DNA from: Bernardetiaceae bacterium
GTDB taxonomy: Bacteria; Bacteroidota; Bacteroidia; Cytophagales; Bernardetiaceae
Direction of reading: 5' to 3'
Assembly: GCA_020832465.1 (NCBI GenBank)
Contig: JAFIER010000012.1
Location: 1 to 34,541 of the forward strand
DNA length: 34,541 nucleotides
Notes under the pieces: generated by a model
Told to the model about the DNA's origin: nothing
The model's database searches: none
Seen by the model: only the letters and a program-made list of their open reading frames with translations
Shown here: positions 1-33,748 of the stretch, piece by piece
How positions within the stretch are numbered: position 1 is the stretch's first letter
Layout: each line of letters starts with the position of its first letter
Made by a program: the position numbers and the translations under genes

Positions 1-725
1 GTAGATCTTACATTTAAACGACGTGGATCTACGCCCAACAATGCAACTGTAGTCATGTTTATAGTCTCTTGTTTGTAGCTTCCAAATAGTATATGAGTAT
101 TTGTAGTACCTTCTTTAGTTTTTTCGGACTTTACTAATCCAATTATCGTTGTTCCTTTCCCTAAGTACTCGTTGAACAAATCTAAGGTAGCTTTATGAAC
201 TTCGTCCATTAGACTCCAATAAGGGTCATTAGAATTTTCGGGTCTTATCTTTATGCCTGTAATTAGACGTTTTTCTTTGTTATACTGAACTTTAACCTTA
301 TTATGAAAACTGCCTTCTATCATGTGTATAAACTCATCAATATAAGCATCTGAAGTCCCATCTTTAAAGCCTAAACCAAAGCTACTTCCCCCCATTTCTG
401 CCTGCATAGAAGCCACAAAATTGACAGCATCAGCACCTGTATAAGTTGTGGAATTACCGCTGGTAAAAATCTCCCTCCCATCAGGGTCAATAAAAATCAG
501 CGGATTATTAGCCACATGCGCAAACGGACTCAAGCTAAAATACTTACTCGCCAGCGCATCTACCCCCCAAAACCTACCCAACTGCGGGTCTTGCTGACGG
601 GCGTGGAAATCATACAAATGCAAACTCAAGGCGGTCTCTCGCTCTTTGCCATTAAACAAAAACCGATACTCCTCAGCACCCTGCACACTCTGCAAATCCC
701 GTTCCTCAATACCCACAAGACTCAT
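1..725 (-). CDS. RHS-repeat C-terminal tip, orphan, partial at window edge
   Basis: The open frame runs from a TAA at 771-773 to the window edge without a stop. It first encodes the end of an RHS core (motifs YYPFGM, FNGKERE, DPQLGRFWGVDALA, NNPLIFIDPDG) and then about 155 residues of a variable tip that I do not recognise. The first ATG in frame is at 723-725, inside the conserved core; no signal peptide or upstream RHS repeats are present, so this looks like a displaced tip rather than a full RHS protein. In polymorphic toxin systems the part after the conserved DPDG-type junction is the toxin. The core part is 97.5% identical in DNA to 2024-2227 in the next tip upstream. It lies downstream of the small gene at 761-1165. 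It may be silent and serve as a recombination donor. The 3' end and any cognate immunity gene lie outside the window. Confidence 0.75.
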   Translation of the reverse strand, partial: MSLVGIEERDLQSVQGAEEYRFLFNGKERETALSLHLYDFHARQQDPQLGRFWGVDALASKYFSLSPFAHVANNPLIFIDPDGREIFTSGNSTTYTGADAVNFVASMQAEMGGSSFGLGFKDGTSDAYIDEFIHMIEGSFHNKVKVQYNKEKRLITGIKIRPENSNDPYWSLMDEVHKATLDLFNEYLGKGTTIIGLVKSEKTKEGTTNTHILFGSYKQETINMTTVALLGVDPRRLNVRS

Positions 726-754
726 ACCAAACGGATAGTAATGATTTTCTTGTA
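551..754 (-). repeat. RHS core-end repeat, copy 1
   Basis: This 204-bp stretch matches 2024-2227 with about five substitutions and no gaps. It encodes the conserved RHS core end before the variable tip. The homology begins at the codons for Gln-Glu-Asn-His and stops just after the Val-Asp-Ala-Leu-Ala codons, exactly where the two proteins diverge, so it can serve as a recombination site for tip exchange. Confidence 0.95.
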
Positions 755-760
755 AGAAAT

Positions 761-1165
761 TTACATTTTCTTAAAAATCAGAGTTGCAGAAAAACTAAAA
801 TCAATTTCTTCTTTCTTACTTAACTTCATAGCAAAAGAATGAAAATCTACTATTTTTCCAATGCAAAAAATATCTAATGAGCTTGAGTTCTCATGCCAAT
901 CACTCGTTTTAAATAAAATATTTTTTACCAAAAAATCCTCCTCCTCAATACAAATATCTCCTCCAAATTTTTTCATTTCATTGGGAAAACTTTGATTTGC
1001 TAAACCCTGAGGTGTTCTTGTATGATTAAATGTCAAAGGATATAAATCAAAGTAAACATCTGTAGACTCAATAATTATTCTCCAAGTATTAGAATAATTA
1101 TCAAATTCTATTGTTGCCGTACTAATTCTATAGATAGATTTGTCTAATTTAAGGGTATTAGTCAT
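761..1165 (-). CDS. Hypothetical protein, candidate immunity protein for upstream RHS tip
   Basis: This 134-residue protein has an ATG start whose first bases overlap the stop codon of the RHS tip at 1158-2255 (8-nt overlap), which suggests translational coupling. It has no signal peptide or membrane segment, is acidic, and is rich in aromatic residues and beta-strand-like sequence, with a run of Glu-Glu-Glu-Asp near residue 75. I recognise no family. In RHS and CDI systems the small gene directly after a toxin tip normally encodes the cognate cytoplasmic immunity protein; that role is inferred from position only. The next tip starts immediately after it, which makes a tip-immunity-tip array. 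Confidence 0.6.
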   Translation of the reverse strand: MTNTLKLDKSIYRISTATIEFDNYSNTWRIIIESTDVYFDLYPLTFNHTRTPQGLANQSFPNEMKKFGGDICIEEEDFLVKNILFKTSDWHENSSSLDIFCIGKIVDFHSFAMKLSKKEEIDFSFSATLIFKKM

Positions 1166-2255
1166 ATTTAATTCGTGAAATTGTGCGATTAGGTGCTGTT
1201 AAACCCATTTTGTCTAACATCTCAGCTTGTTTAATTAACTGGCTACTACTGGGTCTATAATGTCCACTATGATTAGTAATATTAGTTATCTTTCCATTTT
1301 TAATCAATACTCTTCCTGCACCTTGAACATATTCAGCCCCGCCTGATAGATTATAATGCCCTTTTCCAAGTATAAAATGTCCCTCTGCTGTAATAACAAA
1401 GTCTAAATGACGTGGCTTACCTCCTTTTGTCAAAGGATTAGCAGGCAGTAGCTTACCATTTTTTTGCATTAAAATTTTACCGTCCTTAAGCGCATAATGC
1501 ATGATACCAAAGCGACTACCTCCTTGTAAAGCTCTATTTTTTACTTGAATTAAGGGTCTTGTAGATGCAACACTAATAGTTGCTGCAGTTAAAAGTAACT
1601 CAGGATTAGTCCATTGGCTAAGTGCTTCGGCTAAACTTGCTTCAAAAGCTCCTCCTAGTGTTGGATTTAACCAATAAGACACCGCTTTTTCACGAGACCA
1701 ATCAGAGTTTAGTTTACTTAGATGGCTAATCTGTTCACTCGAAAGTTGTTTATCTGCTAAACCTAATTCAGATTTCCAATAGTCATTCCACGCAGGACTA
1801 TCGTATACATCGGGAGACCTTGTATAGAATTCTGCATAAGACTTAAAATCTTCTAATTTATCATCGGGAACAACAACAATATCTTCGCTACCATCTTCTG
1901 TATGCATCAATACATTACCTTCGCCATCTGTGTACCAGGTATCTTGATTCCCATCAGGATCAACCCTCAAAAGGGGATTGTTTTGCACAAAATTGTACGA
2001 ACTCAGCCAATTGCGCTCCTCCGCCAGCGCATCTACCCCCCAAAACCTACCCAACTGCGGGTCTTGCTGACGGGCGTGGAAATCATACAAATGCAAACTC
2101 AAGGCGGTCTCTCGTTCTTTGCCGTTAAACAAAAACCGATACTCCTCTGCCCCCTGCACACTCTGCAAATCCCGTTCTTCAATACCCACAAGACTCATAC
2201 CAAACGGATAGTAATGATTTTCTTGTAGGATTTCAGGTTTGGCAGGCACATCCAA
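1158..2255 (-). CDS. RHS-repeat C-terminal tip (orphan polymorphic toxin module)
   Basis: This 365-residue frame has a TTG as its first usable start, and the frame opens right after the TAG of the upstream lipoprotein gene, in the same frame. Residues about 11-102 are an RHS core end (YYPFGM, FNGKERE, DPQLGRFWGVDALA, NNPLLRVDPDG). Residues 103-365 are a tip unlike that of the neighbouring cassette. The C-terminal 90 residues contain GGKPRHLDF, a Gly-rich YVQGAGRVLIKNGKI stretch and SGHYRP at 330-335. I have seen similar SGHY-type C-termini in RHS and other polymorphic toxins, but I cannot name the activity. There is no secretion signal and no RHS repeat barrel, so it cannot work alone as a delivered toxin. 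Its stop overlaps the start of the candidate immunity gene at 761-1165. Expression from TTG is uncertain. Confidence 0.75.
   Translation of the reverse strand: MDVPAKPEILQENHYYPFGMSLVGIEERDLQSVQGAEEYRFLFNGKERETALSLHLYDFHARQQDPQLGRFWGVDALAEERNWLSSYNFVQNNPLLRVDPDGNQDTWYTDGEGNVLMHTEDGSEDIVVVPDDKLEDFKSYAEFYTRSPDVYDSPAWNDYWKSELGLADKQLSSEQISHLSKLNSDWSREKAVSYWLNPTLGGAFEASLAEALSQWTNPELLLTAATISVASTRPLIQVKNRALQGGSRFGIMHYALKDGKILMQKNGKLLPANPLTKGGKPRHLDFVITAEGHFILGKGHYNLSGGAEYVQGAGRVLIKNGKITNITNHSGHYRPSSSQLIKQAEMLDKMGLTAPNRTISRIKYD
2024..2227 (-). repeat. RHS core-end repeat, copy 2
   Basis: Partner of the 204-bp repeat at 551-754 in direct orientation, about 97.5% identical. The differences are scattered single bases. 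Recombination between the two copies would delete the tip and immunity gene between them. Confidence 0.95.
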
Positions 2256-2273
2256 GAAATTTTCTTCTAATAT

Positions 2274-2831
2274 CTATTGGAACTCTTTACAATTGATTTT
2301 CGGTGTATTATACCCGCCTACAGCTGTACTTGTTCGAACTTTTCTGTATTGTGTCAAATCAGATTTACAAAAATAATAATCCACTCCTTTTTGAGCATCG
2401 TCTATTATTCTTTCAGAGAGTTTTTTTTGATAAATTACGGTATCCACTCTGCTCATTAAATACAGTTTATCAACTACTTCTTGTGATACTGACTTAGTAG
2501 TATCTTTCCAATAAAATAGTTTACCGTCAATCTCCAAAAAATTTGTTGGAAAATGACGATAATCATAGTTTATTTCGTCTTTCGTAAAAAGTGAGACTTT
2601 ATTGATTTTTCTGAAAATACTTACAGATAAAATATTTTTGTTAATGTCTTCAACGTAAATCGAAAATACACTATCTTGTTTTACATACTTTTTTTCAATA
2701 TTTACAAAATCAATTATAGCATTATATACTGCATCATTGGGATTACCATTTGAAACTAAGTTATTCTTCCAAGAAGTGCAACTTCCAAAAAATAACACAG
2801 ACAAGCACCAGAGTAATAATTGTAACTTCAT
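2274..2831 (-). CDS. Hypothetical lipoprotein at the head of the RHS tip array
   Basis: This 185-residue protein starts at the ATG at 2829-2831; a TTG one codon earlier is possible but less likely. The N-terminus is a lipoprotein signal: basic start, a Leu/Val/Phe-rich stretch, then FFGSC with the lipid-attachment Cys near residue 20. The rest is soluble and charged, with no family I recognise. Its TAG stop is followed in the same frame by the RHS tip at 1158-2255, so the two are separated only by that stop and a short spacer. It could be an immunity lipoprotein left over from a previous tip of the array whose toxin part has been lost; this is inferred from position. Confidence 0.65.
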   Translation of the reverse strand: MKLQLLLWCLSVLFFGSCTSWKNNLVSNGNPNDAVYNAIIDFVNIEKKYVKQDSVFSIYVEDINKNILSVSIFRKINKVSLFTKDEINYDYRHFPTNFLEIDGKLFYWKDTTKSVSQEVVDKLYLMSRVDTVIYQKKLSERIIDDAQKGVDYYFCKSDLTQYRKVRTSTAVGGYNTPKINCKEFQ

Positions 2832-2954
2832 CAATATTCAAAAGTTTTAGGGTTAGTAATGATGATAAATCGTTGAACACCACTTGATATCTGGGATGCT
2901 TTATATAGCTTATCAGCTCTTGAGGGTTTTAATCTGTGTTCGTCATCCCCCCCC

Positions 2955-3024
2955 TCTGTTCGTAGGGTCTCACTACGAATTTATTTACAAGCATTTAAGT
3001 TCTTAGCGAGACGCTAAGAACAGA
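2955..3024. repeat. Paired hairpins forming an inverted repeat with GTCTC/GAGAC centres
   Basis: Two 25-nt arms, 2955-2979 and 3000-3024, are inverted copies of each other (21 of 25 positions match), and each arm is itself a hairpin: TTCGTAG/CTACGAA in the left and GTTCTTAGCG/CGCTAAGAAC around an AGA loop in the right. A run of eight C residues precedes it at 2947-2954. It has no T-tract, so a simple terminator is unlikely. Confidence 0.75.
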
Positions 3025-3085
3025 AGGGATACATCTATTTTGTCTTTTTTTGACTATAAAACTCCTAAAATTCAATACTATCTAT

Positions 3086-3167
3086 CATACTACTAGCCCT
3101 TTTCCATCCAGAAATAACATTTCTCAAAGAAATGTTATTTCTAAGCTCATTTTTGAATAGTAGTATG
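3086..3167. repeat. Family C palindromic element, short form
   Basis: This 82-bp element has perfect 10-bp terminal inverted repeats (CATACTACTA at 3086-3095 and TAGTAGTATG at 3158-3167). It contains the 33-nt core hairpin at 3110-3142 (15-bp perfect stem, CAA loop). Compared with 23806-23911 it lacks the GC-rich second palindrome between the core and one end. Confidence 0.75.
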
Positions 3168-3215
3168 ACTATCGATAAAAAAACATAGTTTTTCCTATCT
3201 CTTATCTTAGTTTAA

Positions 3216-3920
3216 CTACTCTACCTCATAACGATTAGAAACAAATTCATTACGCTTTTCCCGTATAAAAAACATATCCATTTGCCAAAACATTTCATCT
3301 TTAGGACGTCGCATAATATCTACAATATCAGCGCATCTAAATCCTTTTTGACGCAAATAATCACACATTTCCCAAAAATGTAAACTATTTTCTGCAATCT
3401 GAAAATTATAAACCTCTACGATGATAAGCTCAAGCTGCTCCCAAATTTGAGCCGCGCCTTCAAAAATCGGTACTTCAAAACCATGAGTATCGAGCTTGAG
3501 AGCATAAGGAGGCTTAAGCTTGCGCTTGCGCACTTCTTTATCCACCCGCACAAGAGGTACAGAAATACAATCTGCAATATCCAAAGGAGTTTTGGATGCC
3601 AAGCCCGCATGAGGATCGCTCGCATCAAAATAAATTTCCCCCTCGCTGTCGCCAGCAGCAGCGATGACAAAATTTACAGCCACCTGCGCCCCCGTAAATT
3701 TTTCTAAATCCTTACGATGCACCTCCTGTGCTTCTATAAGCAAAAACTCCGAATTGGGAAAGTAACGCTGCGTCATGGCAGTCCAGCGTCCGTCAGATGC
3801 ACCAATATCTATAAAAGTAGCAATAGCAAGGCGTTGGGCTATGCGCTGCACTCCGCCTTCCATAGTCAGCGAATCGCGGTCTATTTTATCAATATGATAA
3901 CCCAAACGGCGAAAACCCAT
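3216..3920 (-). CDS. FkbM family methyltransferase
   Basis: A SAM-dependent methyltransferase of the FkbM family, usually acting on sugar or polyketide hydroxyl groups. The SAM-binding glycine motif FIDIGASDG lies at about residues 36-44, followed by an acidic residue in LLIEAQ at the next strand, VPLVRVDK in the middle, and the family motif LKLDTHGFE at about 141-149, then IIVEVYNF. I chose the ATG at 3918-3920 (234 residues). A TTG seven codons upstream (to 3941) would add a Leu/Lys-rich stretch that also fits the family's usual N-terminus. There is no signal peptide, so it is cytoplasmic. It stands alone between repeat-rich gaps, so the acceptor cannot be inferred. The family call is secure; the substrate is unknown. 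Confidence 0.9.
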   Translation of the reverse strand: MGFRRLGYHIDKIDRDSLTMEGGVQRIAQRLAIATFIDIGASDGRWTAMTQRYFPNSEFLLIEAQEVHRKDLEKFTGAQVAVNFVIAAAGDSEGEIYFDASDPHAGLASKTPLDIADCISVPLVRVDKEVRKRKLKPPYALKLDTHGFEVPIFEGAAQIWEQLELIIVEVYNFQIAENSLHFWEMCDYLRQKGFRCADIVDIMRRPKDEMFWQMDMFFIREKRNEFVSNRYEVE

Positions 3921-4209
3921 TTTTAATAATGATTTAAGCAAGGTGTAATCGGTGTTTATATCCTAAAAATAAAACGGAAAAGCAATGAAAAGTTTTACTT
4001 TAGATGTACAAAAACAGCTTAAAATAATTTATAACTTGCAAAATATATAGCAGTATAAAAAATGACAAACTCTGCGCACACCTGTCTCTTCCCAATGCAC
4101 TACAAATTTACACAAAACTCAAGATATAAAAAAAATAGTGAAACAAGAATGTCCACAATAGCGTTATATGCCGTAAATTTAGCTCATACTTTCTAACCTA
4201 TAAAAACTT

Positions 4210-4497
4210 ATGCTATTGTATTTACCTTTTGCCTTAGTTTTTGGTTTATCTACGCTACTACCAATTTATTTGTTGAGAATTAGAGCAAAATATAAGTTTT
4301 TTTGGCTTAATACCTTGCCTATGCTCCTGGCGAGCTTTGTGGCTTCGGCAGTGCATGCACACTATTGGAGGGAGCAATATTCAGGTTTTTGGGGACTCCT
4401 GACTTATTTTACTGTATTTGCCATAGTCATGGCACTTAATGTAGCGATTATTGTACTGACTTATCGTATTATTTTTGGCGAAAAGCCCCACTTTTAA
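4210..4497 (+). CDS. Small integral membrane protein, unknown
   Basis: This 95-residue protein has three predicted membrane helices, at about residues 2-22, 33-50 and 62-86, with the short basic stretch RIRAKYKF after the first. The C-terminus EKPHF is charged. I recognise no family or motif. It is the only plus-strand gene in this part of the window and is followed by a family C palindromic element. The ATG, the length and the clear hydrophobic pattern support it as real. Confidence 0.65.
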   Translation: MLLYLPFALVFGLSTLLPIYLLRIRAKYKFFWLNTLPMLLASFVASAVHAHYWREQYSGFWGLLTYFTVFAIVMALNVAIIVLTYRIIFGEKPHF

Positions 4498-4514: not shown

Positions 4515-4610
4515 ACTATACATTTTTCTATAGCGTGCGTGGGGGTTGCAACCTCAAGCTATGGAAAAATGAGCTTAAAAATAAGATTTCTCTGAGAAAT
4601 GTTGTTTCTG
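4515..4610. repeat. Family C palindromic element, degenerate copy
   Basis: It begins with ACTATACATTTTT at 4515, followed by an imperfect palindrome (CTATAGCGTGCG to CAAGCTATGG) and then a degenerate core hairpin around 4578-4609. The arrangement matches the family C elements at 23806-23911 and 29213-29329, but the right end has decayed. Confidence 0.6.
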
Positions 4611-6498: not shown

Positions 6499-6600
6499 AG
6501 GTGTACGTCAAGTTGGTAAAACGACTTAGATAATTTCAGAAATAACATTTCTTTAAGACATGCTATTTCTGGGCACATTTAGCAAAGTTGTCGTACACCC
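6499..6600 (+). mobile_element. Family B MITE-like element, 102 bp, with 8-bp target duplication
   Basis: The left end is AGGTGTACGTCAAGTTGG and the right end is the imperfect inverse, AAAGTTGTCGTACACCC. The 8-bp direct repeat GTCTAAAC flanks it at 6491-6498 and 6601-6608. The interior carries a 33-nt core hairpin at 6538-6570. The ends match 32166-32288 (inverted), while the interior differs. Confidence 0.85.
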
Positions 6601-9391: not shown

Positions 9392-9434
9392 CATTTAGAA
9401 ATGATATTTCTTTGAGAAATATCATTTCTAAATG
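9392..9434. terminator. Hairpin, 20-bp perfect stem, third core variant
   Basis: CATTTAGAAATGATATTTCT pairs perfectly with 9415-9434 around a TTG loop. It is the same 5-5-5 core design as elsewhere, with loops TGATA/TATCA instead of TAACA/TGTTA. It lies just after the stop of the flavin-reductase gene (minus strand) and lacks a strong T-run, so termination is plausible but not certain. Confidence 0.6.
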
Positions 9435-16303: not shown

Positions 16304-16330
16304 TAGTAAAGCAAACAGGGTTCAAAATGT

Positions 16331-16421
16331 GGTAGTGTATAACAAGTAATGCTTAGAACTAACAGTTCTTTGAGAACTGTTAGTTTTGAAAGACTTTGAG
16401 CATTACATCTTTAAGACTACC
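16331..16421 (+). mobile_element. Family A MITE, 91 bp, copy 1
   Basis: It is bounded by GGTAGTGTATAACAAG at the left and the imperfect inverse, CTTTAAGACTACC, at the right, with inner GTAATGCT/AGCATTAC pairing. The core hairpin is at 16355-16387. An 8-bp target duplication CAAAATGT lies at 16323-16330 and 16422-16429. The sequence is identical to 22853-22943 and, inverted, to 27997-28087. Confidence 0.93.
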
Positions 16422-16803
16422 CAAAATGTTAAGATAATTTTGAGCCCTATTTTTAATTTTATGCTTTATTACAAAAATACTTACATATCCAGAATGGTAC
16501 TTTTTACTTGCATGAATGCCTGCTAATCATATTTTAACAAGTCTTAAACCTATAAATCCTGATTTAAGTTTTTAAGCCTATTCCTTGTTAAAGCATAAAA
16601 AATGCTAAAAAAGGGGTTTGTTTTATAAAAAAGTTACAAGATATTCAAAGAAAAGTTTTCGATTTTCTAAAACTTTAAAAATTAGCATACGTAAATATAA
16701 TCAACATAGCCAATGACTATGTTACCAATAGTATGCAGTTAGTTATTGAAAAAGTTTAAGTATTACATCGTTATATAGACTCTCTGAAATCGATGTTCAT
16801 AGA

Positions 16804-22765: not shown

Positions 22766-22852
22766 GAAAAATGCCTTACAAAAGCACACAAGCAAATGTA
22801 CACCTGTAGCTATTACAAAAGCTAATTTTATTGCGTTTTAAGAACTATTTTT

Positions 22853-22943
22853 GGTAGTGTATAACAAGTAATGCTTAGAACTAACAGTTCTTTGAGAACT
22901 GTTAGTTTTGAAAGACTTTGAGCATTACATCTTTAAGACTACC
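22853..22943 (+). mobile_element. Family A MITE, 91 bp, copy 2
   Basis: Identical to 16331-16421. The 8-bp target duplication CTATTTTT is at 22845-22852 and 22944-22951, perfect. The core hairpin is at 22877-22909. Confidence 0.95.
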
Positions 22944-23013
22944 CTATTTTTAAACAGCCTCATCTCAAAGAAATGTTATTGCTAAAATTCGGTACTCAAT
23001 ATCTATTATAGCC

Positions 23014-23805: not shown

Positions 23806-23911
23806 TGCCATCCAGAAATAACATTTCTTTGAGAAATGTTATTTTCTAAGCCCATTTTGCCATAACGTGGGGTTTGCAAACCCCACGTTATGGAAAAATG
23901 TATAGTAATAT
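23806..23911 (-). repeat. Family C palindromic element, full form
   Basis: Read on the minus strand it begins TACTATACATTTTT, then has a perfect 34-bp palindrome at 23860-23893 (17-bp halves around TTTGCAAA) and then the core hairpin at 23814-23847, which has one extra T. This is the best-preserved full copy in the window. Confidence 0.75.
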
Positions 23912-27996: not shown

Positions 27997-28087
27997 GGTA
28001 GTCTTAAAGATGTAATGCTCAAAGTCTTTCAAAACTAACAGTTCTCAAAGAACTGTTAGTTCTAAGCATTACTTGTTATACACTACC
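27997..28087 (-). mobile_element. Family A MITE, 91 bp, copy 3 (inverted)
   Basis: Exact reverse complement of copies 1 and 2. The 8-bp target duplication CTAAAATT is at 27989-27996 and 28088-28095. The core hairpin is at 28031-28063. Confidence 0.95.
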
Positions 28088-28126
28088 CTAAAATTTAAAC
28101 GTAAAGCTCAACACAAAGTTTTTTGA

Positions 28127-30473: not shown

Positions 30474-30572
30474 GGGTGTACGTCAAGTTGGTAAATCGAC
30501 TTAGGACGATTCAAAACTAACAGTTTTTCGAAAACTGTTAGTTATTGATAATTAGTAAATTTTAGAACTAAC
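30474..30572 (+). mobile_element. Family B element, right end truncated
   Basis: Its left end (GGGTGTACGTCAAGTTGG) and interior follow the inverted copy at 32166-32288 up to about ATTAGTAAAT. After that the right terminal repeat is missing and replaced by another palindrome. The core is at 30513-30545. Confidence 0.75.
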
Positions 30573-30603
30573 AGTTCTGGCAGAACTGTTAGTTCTAAAA
30601 TTT
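30557..30603. repeat. Perfect 47-nt palindrome with 23-bp arms
   Basis: The two 23-nt arms (30557-30579 and 30581-30603) are perfect complements around a single G. It contains the type 2 core (AGAAC-TAACA-GTTCT). It lies 27 nt after the Sel1 gene stop on the minus strand and may function as a terminator. Confidence 0.85.
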
Positions 30604-33684: not shown

Positions 33685-33715
33685 AGACCGACATAAGCAA
33701 CTCAAATATAGGCTT

Positions 33716-33748
33716 AGAAATAACATTTCTCAAAGAAATGTTATTTCT
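33716..33748. repeat. Core hairpin type 1 downstream of mdh
   Basis: 33-nt perfect hairpin identical to the core at 3110-3142: 15-bp stem, CAA loop. It sits 31 nt after the mdh stop and lacks the outer arms of family B or C. Confidence 0.85.

Follow-up and report, generated by a model that had tools for sequence, protein, structure and literature searches.

Tandem orphan RHS tips with linked candidate immunity genes in a member of the Bernardetiaceae: a probable fragment of a silent toxin cassette reserve

The stretch of DNA analyzed here, referred to as the window, is a complete contig of 34,541 bp (C122) from a 4.6-Mb draft genome that comprises 289 contigs and is 99.3% complete. Its left edge is the end of the contig, and the genes located there read, on the minus strand, as a lipoprotein, an RHS tip (tip A), a small gene (ImmA) and a second RHS tip (tip B), in that order. 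The lipoprotein gene (2274..2831), a candidate orphan immunity gene, more likely starts at the ATG at position 2831 than at the TTG at 2834. The frame of tip A (1158..2273) opens just past the lipoprotein stop and ends in a putative toxin domain (1158..1547) that is called SGHY hereafter. ImmA (761..1165; 134 aa) is the candidate immunity gene of tip A and overlaps the stop of the latter by 8 nt (1158-1165). Tip B (3..770) is an orphan tip that lacks a stop in its frame (770-3), and both its toxin end and its immunity gene fall outside the window because the contig ends at this point. Ahead of the lipoprotein gene, a short minus-strand segment (2831..2941) possibly represents what is left of a further tip.

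Beyond these genes, the window contains ten or more intergenic palindromes of about 35 nt (e.g., AGAAATAACATTTCTCAAAGAAATGTTATTTCT), among others at 3108-3142, 4575-4609, 6536-6570, 9395-9429, 16353-16387, 22875-22909, 23812-23846, 28029-28063, 30562-30596 and 33714-33748, and they are found in other contigs of the genome as well. They form sub-families in which the two arms vary together (AAATAACATTT vs AACTAACAGTT), and by their sequence they look like interspersed hairpins of the REP/MITE type. One palindrome is also contained in each copy of a 93-nt element that occurs three times within 12 kb (16330-16422, 22852-22944 and 27997-28092), comprising two direct copies that are 100% identical and one inverted copy with 98-100% identity.

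Both tips share a direct repeat of core sequence, with copy 1 in tip A (2022..2230) and copy 2 in tip B (549..757), the latter starting about 4 nt after the ImmA stop. Positions 2022-2227 and 549-754 align without gaps over 206 nt at 97.6% identity (about 206-209 nt at 97-97.6%), which is far beyond chance. The core is of the RHS type, and against the RHS core model TIGR03696 the copies score 46.6 bits (tip A) and 40.7 bits (tip B), above the curated cut-off of 32.5 bits. Past the DPDG motif, the two frames are unrelated. The sequence-only reading of this DNA had described two tips with a common core end of about 204 bp at about 97.5% identity followed by unrelated C-termini, as well as a small gene overlapping the stop of the first tip by 8 nt, and both descriptions hold.

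Each tip frame begins at the stop of the preceding immunity gene, and, as read from the sequence, an export signal of its own is absent. No ATG occurs ahead of YYPFGM in either tip, while tip A has one in-frame TTG at 2255 and an ATG is present at YYPFGM in both tips. As the tips start about 4-30 nt after the preceding stop, these codons would allow the tips to be translated in place as small independent toxins, either through coupling to the immunity gene ahead of them or from the TTG/ATG starts within the core. We consider such translation decidedly unlikely, given that the products would have no export signal and that the product of a comparable orphan in Salmonella was undetected before recombination (PMC3967940).

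Comparison with other contigs of the genome reveals a mosaic. Tip A is 99.6% identical to a tip on C197 over 227 nt, up to position 1948 just past the DPDG motif, after which the two diverge, and tip B is 94.6% identical to a tip on C80 over 260 nt, up to position 382, before diverging as well. The break points thus differ between both pairs, as expected of recombination. Beyond the core, the C-terminus of tip B, of which the end is missing, gave weak matches and no toxin class was assigned to it. The C80 tip also contains a stretch resembling H.H...S..D, with no detectable kinship to the JAB tips described below. RHS core of any kind is present at 22 places in the source genome. The core of the window recurs on five other contigs (C62, C197, C249, C80 and C213), mostly at contig ends, and at the ends of four contigs (C197, C249, C213 and C148) the core extends further upstream, in pieces that only ever form short frames. 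Many of the RHS tips in the genome have a small gene that overlaps them or lies just behind. The sole long RHS frame, of 536 aa, is located at the end of C161 and has a different core. A full-length RHS gene with the core of the window was not found in the assembly, in which several contigs end inside this core, and a query for such a gene with the upstream 1134 aa of G001 gave no match in the own genome, which is uninformative. Near RHS fragments (L037, L039, L043 and L078), transposase-like genes of the Rpn/PD-(D/E)XK type with variable EEGxEKGxEKG repeats are observed, which may help to move or break RHS arrays.

Since the draft consists of 289 contigs, several of which end inside the core of the window, a short-read assembly might have joined unrelated RHS tips via the shared core repeat, making the gene order an artefact. 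This is highly unlikely, as each junction between a tip and its immunity gene is located in unique sequence outside the repeat, and a relative of the same family that is assembled as one contig (G004) displays the same architecture. In this relative, an RHS head with a signal peptide and a YD region is followed by about eight tips that carry the same core end; a small gene lies behind almost every one of them. Moreover, a misjoin would alter which tips adjoin, not the nature of each cassette. Further arrays occur in G028 and G002.

The lipoprotein at the head of the window's array has, as read by eye, a signal peptide and a lipobox (...LFFGSC), of which the cysteine is invariant in six homologues, and it keeps every invariant column of its alignment. 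Homologues are present in four out of the 394 other Bacteroidota genomes searched. In two of these, G028 and G113, a homologue lies directly behind an RHS tip with a JAB-like C-terminus, and G113 comprises two copies of the lipoprotein in tandem; in G179 and G064, the homologues are located apart from any RHS tip within the stretch examined. The C-termini of the G028 and G113 tips are 47% identical and contain the pattern HxH...S..D. Among 296 sampled genomes, the JAB-like tip domain was found in these same two, each time with the lipoprotein homologue directly behind. Neither the lipoprotein nor the JAB tip had a match in searches of plasmids. A structure model of the JAB-like domain, built from two sequences, was too poor to use (pLDDT 38.8), and the JAB call consequently rests on the HxH...S..D motif. 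Tox-JAB-1 toxins have been described as RHS-borne, confined to Bacteroidetes and strictly paired with the lipoprotein Imm65 (Zhang 2012, PMC3482391). Based on this published pairing and on the linkage in G028 and G113, the lipoprotein of the window is interpreted as an orphan, Imm65-like immunity gene whose JAB-type tip has been lost. At the corresponding position, the window lipoprotein reads YYFC, and YxxC is the pair that is invariant across the alignment, versus the YxC listed for Imm65 (PMC3482391). Imm65 is the only lipoprotein immunity family in that collection. Behind RHS tips in the genome's other arrays (L031, L033, L038, L040 and L041), about eight different lipoprotein-like immunity candidates are recognizable by eye.

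The segment ahead of the lipoprotein gene (2831..2941) may retain a trace of this lost tip. Within 2001-4300, the best tblastn match of the G028 JAB tip falls at 2840-2935 (E 0.010; 32% identity), although the profile score of the segment is equalled by six out of 1000 shuffles of the region when all frames are considered and is thus statistically weak. A frame of 37 codons (DEHRLKPSRADKLYKASQISSGVQRFIIITNPKTFEY) aligns with the final part of the JAB tip, and its stop TGA (2833-2831) overlaps the lipoprotein ATG as TGATG. Both the place and the frame of these codons are as expected, which favors a JAB-tip remnant, but the case is suggestive only. Exactly where the possible remnant ends, a separate hairpin-rich stretch is observed (2955-3022; CTGTTCGTAGGGTCTCACTACGAA...TTCTTAGCGAGACGCTAAGAACAG), of which no other copy was found in the loci examined.

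In tip A, the C-terminal 130 or so residues constitute a domain that has H...AAG...N.SGH[YF].P as its conserved pattern, in which G, N, S, G, H and P are invariant across 11 sequences. Relatives are found in Chryseobacterium, Flavobacterium, Legionella, a Roseovarius MAG, an alphaproteobacterial MAG and Desulfonema. On plasmids, the domain forms the C-terminal end of three kinds of protein, namely a full-length RHS protein of Janthinobacterium (WP_176386534.1), which the next gene overlaps by 4 nt, LXG proteins of Listeria innocua and a Nocardia protein encoded behind two WXG100 genes; in the latter two cases, a small gene follows. A small gene is thus located directly downstream of the SGHY domain in the window and in Janthinobacterium, Listeria, Nocardia, Flavobacterium and Chryseobacterium. 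Given that one and the same C-terminal domain is attached to different delivery N-termini (RHS, LXG and WXG100-linked, besides further Bacteroidota proteins) and is accompanied by a small downstream gene, SGHY has the hallmarks of a polymorphic-toxin domain.

When the tips and the immunity genes were compared with Pfam, NCBIfam, PADLOC and PHROGs, the RHS core was matched and no toxin or immunity model was; SGHY itself has no model in any of these libraries. A sequence search of the PDB returned nothing, SGHY gave no match in phage and viral scans, and a literature search with the SGHY motif strings retrieved no relevant paper. An AlphaFold2 model of the domain is of moderate quality (pLDDT 69.5), and no convincing fold match was obtained for it with Foldseek against the PDB or against VIA-align. 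A single row from a viral fold library (G8DGH9; probability 0.98, TM 0.45, E 0.07) is too weak to build on. We conclude that SGHY is a widespread and widely shuffled putative toxin domain that is uncurated in the four libraries searched.

More distant similarity to the domain (RHSEH...SAGEI...NQSTGYCP) is seen in standalone proteins of about 180 aa from genomes of the same family and the same order (L130-L133), which have a C-terminal CxxC pair and, in three cases, shared neighbors. In G322, a second kind of orphan-tip array (L081:4032-9001) comprises tandem tips that share the pre-toxin segment 'AIKGGLRKSAKEVLEH', one of which carries the SGHY domain. The C-terminal region of plant IQM calmodulin-binding proteins presumably also contains a similar motif (HSSF...AAG...SGHY.P). 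A tentative extension, which we hold somewhat less probable than its opposite, is that SGHY constitutes an undescribed toxin family, which may represent a new fold or a new class of enzyme. The family would span several phyla, RHS, LXG and T7SS carriers and several unrelated immunity families, would also occur as standalone proteins and would possibly include the C-terminal domain of plant IQM proteins.

No signal peptide is evident by eye in ImmA, which suggests a cytoplasmic target for the toxin of tip A. Homologues of ImmA were not found in the 394 other Bacteroidota genomes. The small genes behind SGHY toxins fall into several unrelated groups, and ImmA has no similarity to those behind other SGHY toxins. 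From its position, ImmA is likely the antidote of the tip A toxin.

The tips could also be regarded as decaying, functionless remains of earlier RHS genes, in which case chance would have decided whether an immunity gene was retained. The genome is indeed littered with short RHS fragments, some of which have internal stops, and the tip at the head of the window has been almost wholly lost. Yet, the frame of tip A is open to its end with a conserved SGHY motif, ImmA is intact and retains its 8-nt overlap, and the lipoprotein preserves all invariant columns, making mere decay improbable. The reading we prefer, with a probability of about 0.82, is that the window holds a fragment of a silent reserve of orphan RHS toxin/immunity cassettes that can be recombined onto full-length RHS proteins. 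The displaced tip/immunity array proposed from the sequence alone finds support in the shared core with unrelated C-termini, the 22 places with RHS core, the small genes beside the tips and the array in G004. Likewise, the JAB-like tips of G028 and G113 and the published pairing (PMC3482391) support the proposal that the lipoprotein served as immunity gene to a tip that is now lost; the possible remnant adds weakly to this.

Under this cassette reading, each unit would consist of a short, near-identical piece of RHS core, a C-terminal toxin that differs between units and an immunity gene in close linkage. With neither a signal peptide nor an RHS shell, and without any obvious start codon, the cassettes are probably silent as toxins where they stand. 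Recombination through the core of about 200 nt would put the toxin of a cassette onto a full-length, Sec-exported RHS protein, which would deliver it to neighbors, and the linked immunity gene would move along with the toxin. A silent store is the likeliest role in view of the orphan rhs-CT of Salmonella, for which expression required prior recombination with the main gene across a segment of 522 bp that is 95% identical (PMC3967940). In the window, the head lipoprotein would have belonged, as immunity gene, to an earlier tip of the JAB type, tip A would supply the SGHY toxin with ImmA as its likely antidote, and tip B would be a further cassette cut by the contig end. Toxicity and neutralization by these pairs are inferred from sequence. 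Possibly, the immunity genes are expressed and shield their host from kin that use the same tips. Points that weigh against this reading are that no full-length RHS gene with the window's core was found in an assembly of which several contigs end inside that core, the weak JAB remnant, the lack of ImmA homologues and a possible misjoin at the repeat of about 210 nt.

Toxin cassettes are known (PMC3482391), and arrays of orphan cassettes have been described as well; the additions made here are the likely identity of the lost tip and the uncurated SGHY domain. Under the cassette reading, the model by which RHS proteins diversify through orphan cassettes would also apply to a lineage of Bacteroidota with large arrays of RHS tips, and an orphan lipoprotein immunity gene would be linked to a lost toxin class. 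In addition, attention is drawn to a widespread, putative C-terminal toxin domain, absent from the four libraries searched, that is open to a simple expression assay.

Among known systems, the polymorphic toxins resemble SGHY in that their C-terminal domains are swapped among carriers, here RHS, LXG and WXG100-linked proteins, with a small gene behind, whereas SGHY differs by having no model in Pfam, NCBIfam, PHROGs or PADLOC. The Tox-JAB-1/Imm65 pair (Zhang 2012, PMC3482391) likewise places a lipoprotein immunity protein beside a JAB-like, RHS-borne toxin in Bacteroidota; in the window, however, no more than a remnant of the toxin is present, a Pfam model is not matched, and the alignment has YxxC at the place of the listed YxC. 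A further comparison is with the orphan rhs-CT/rhsI modules of Enterobacteriaceae (Salmonella LT2; Koskiniemi 2014, PMC3967940). The present array differs from these in its Bacteroidota background, in a shorter shared segment (about 206 nt vs 522 bp), in its many lipoprotein immunity candidates and in a main gene with the window's core that was not found in the draft. Nonetheless, both have a near-identical core fragment among the copies, unrelated C-termini after a DPxG motif, a linked immunity gene and no clear translation start for the tip.
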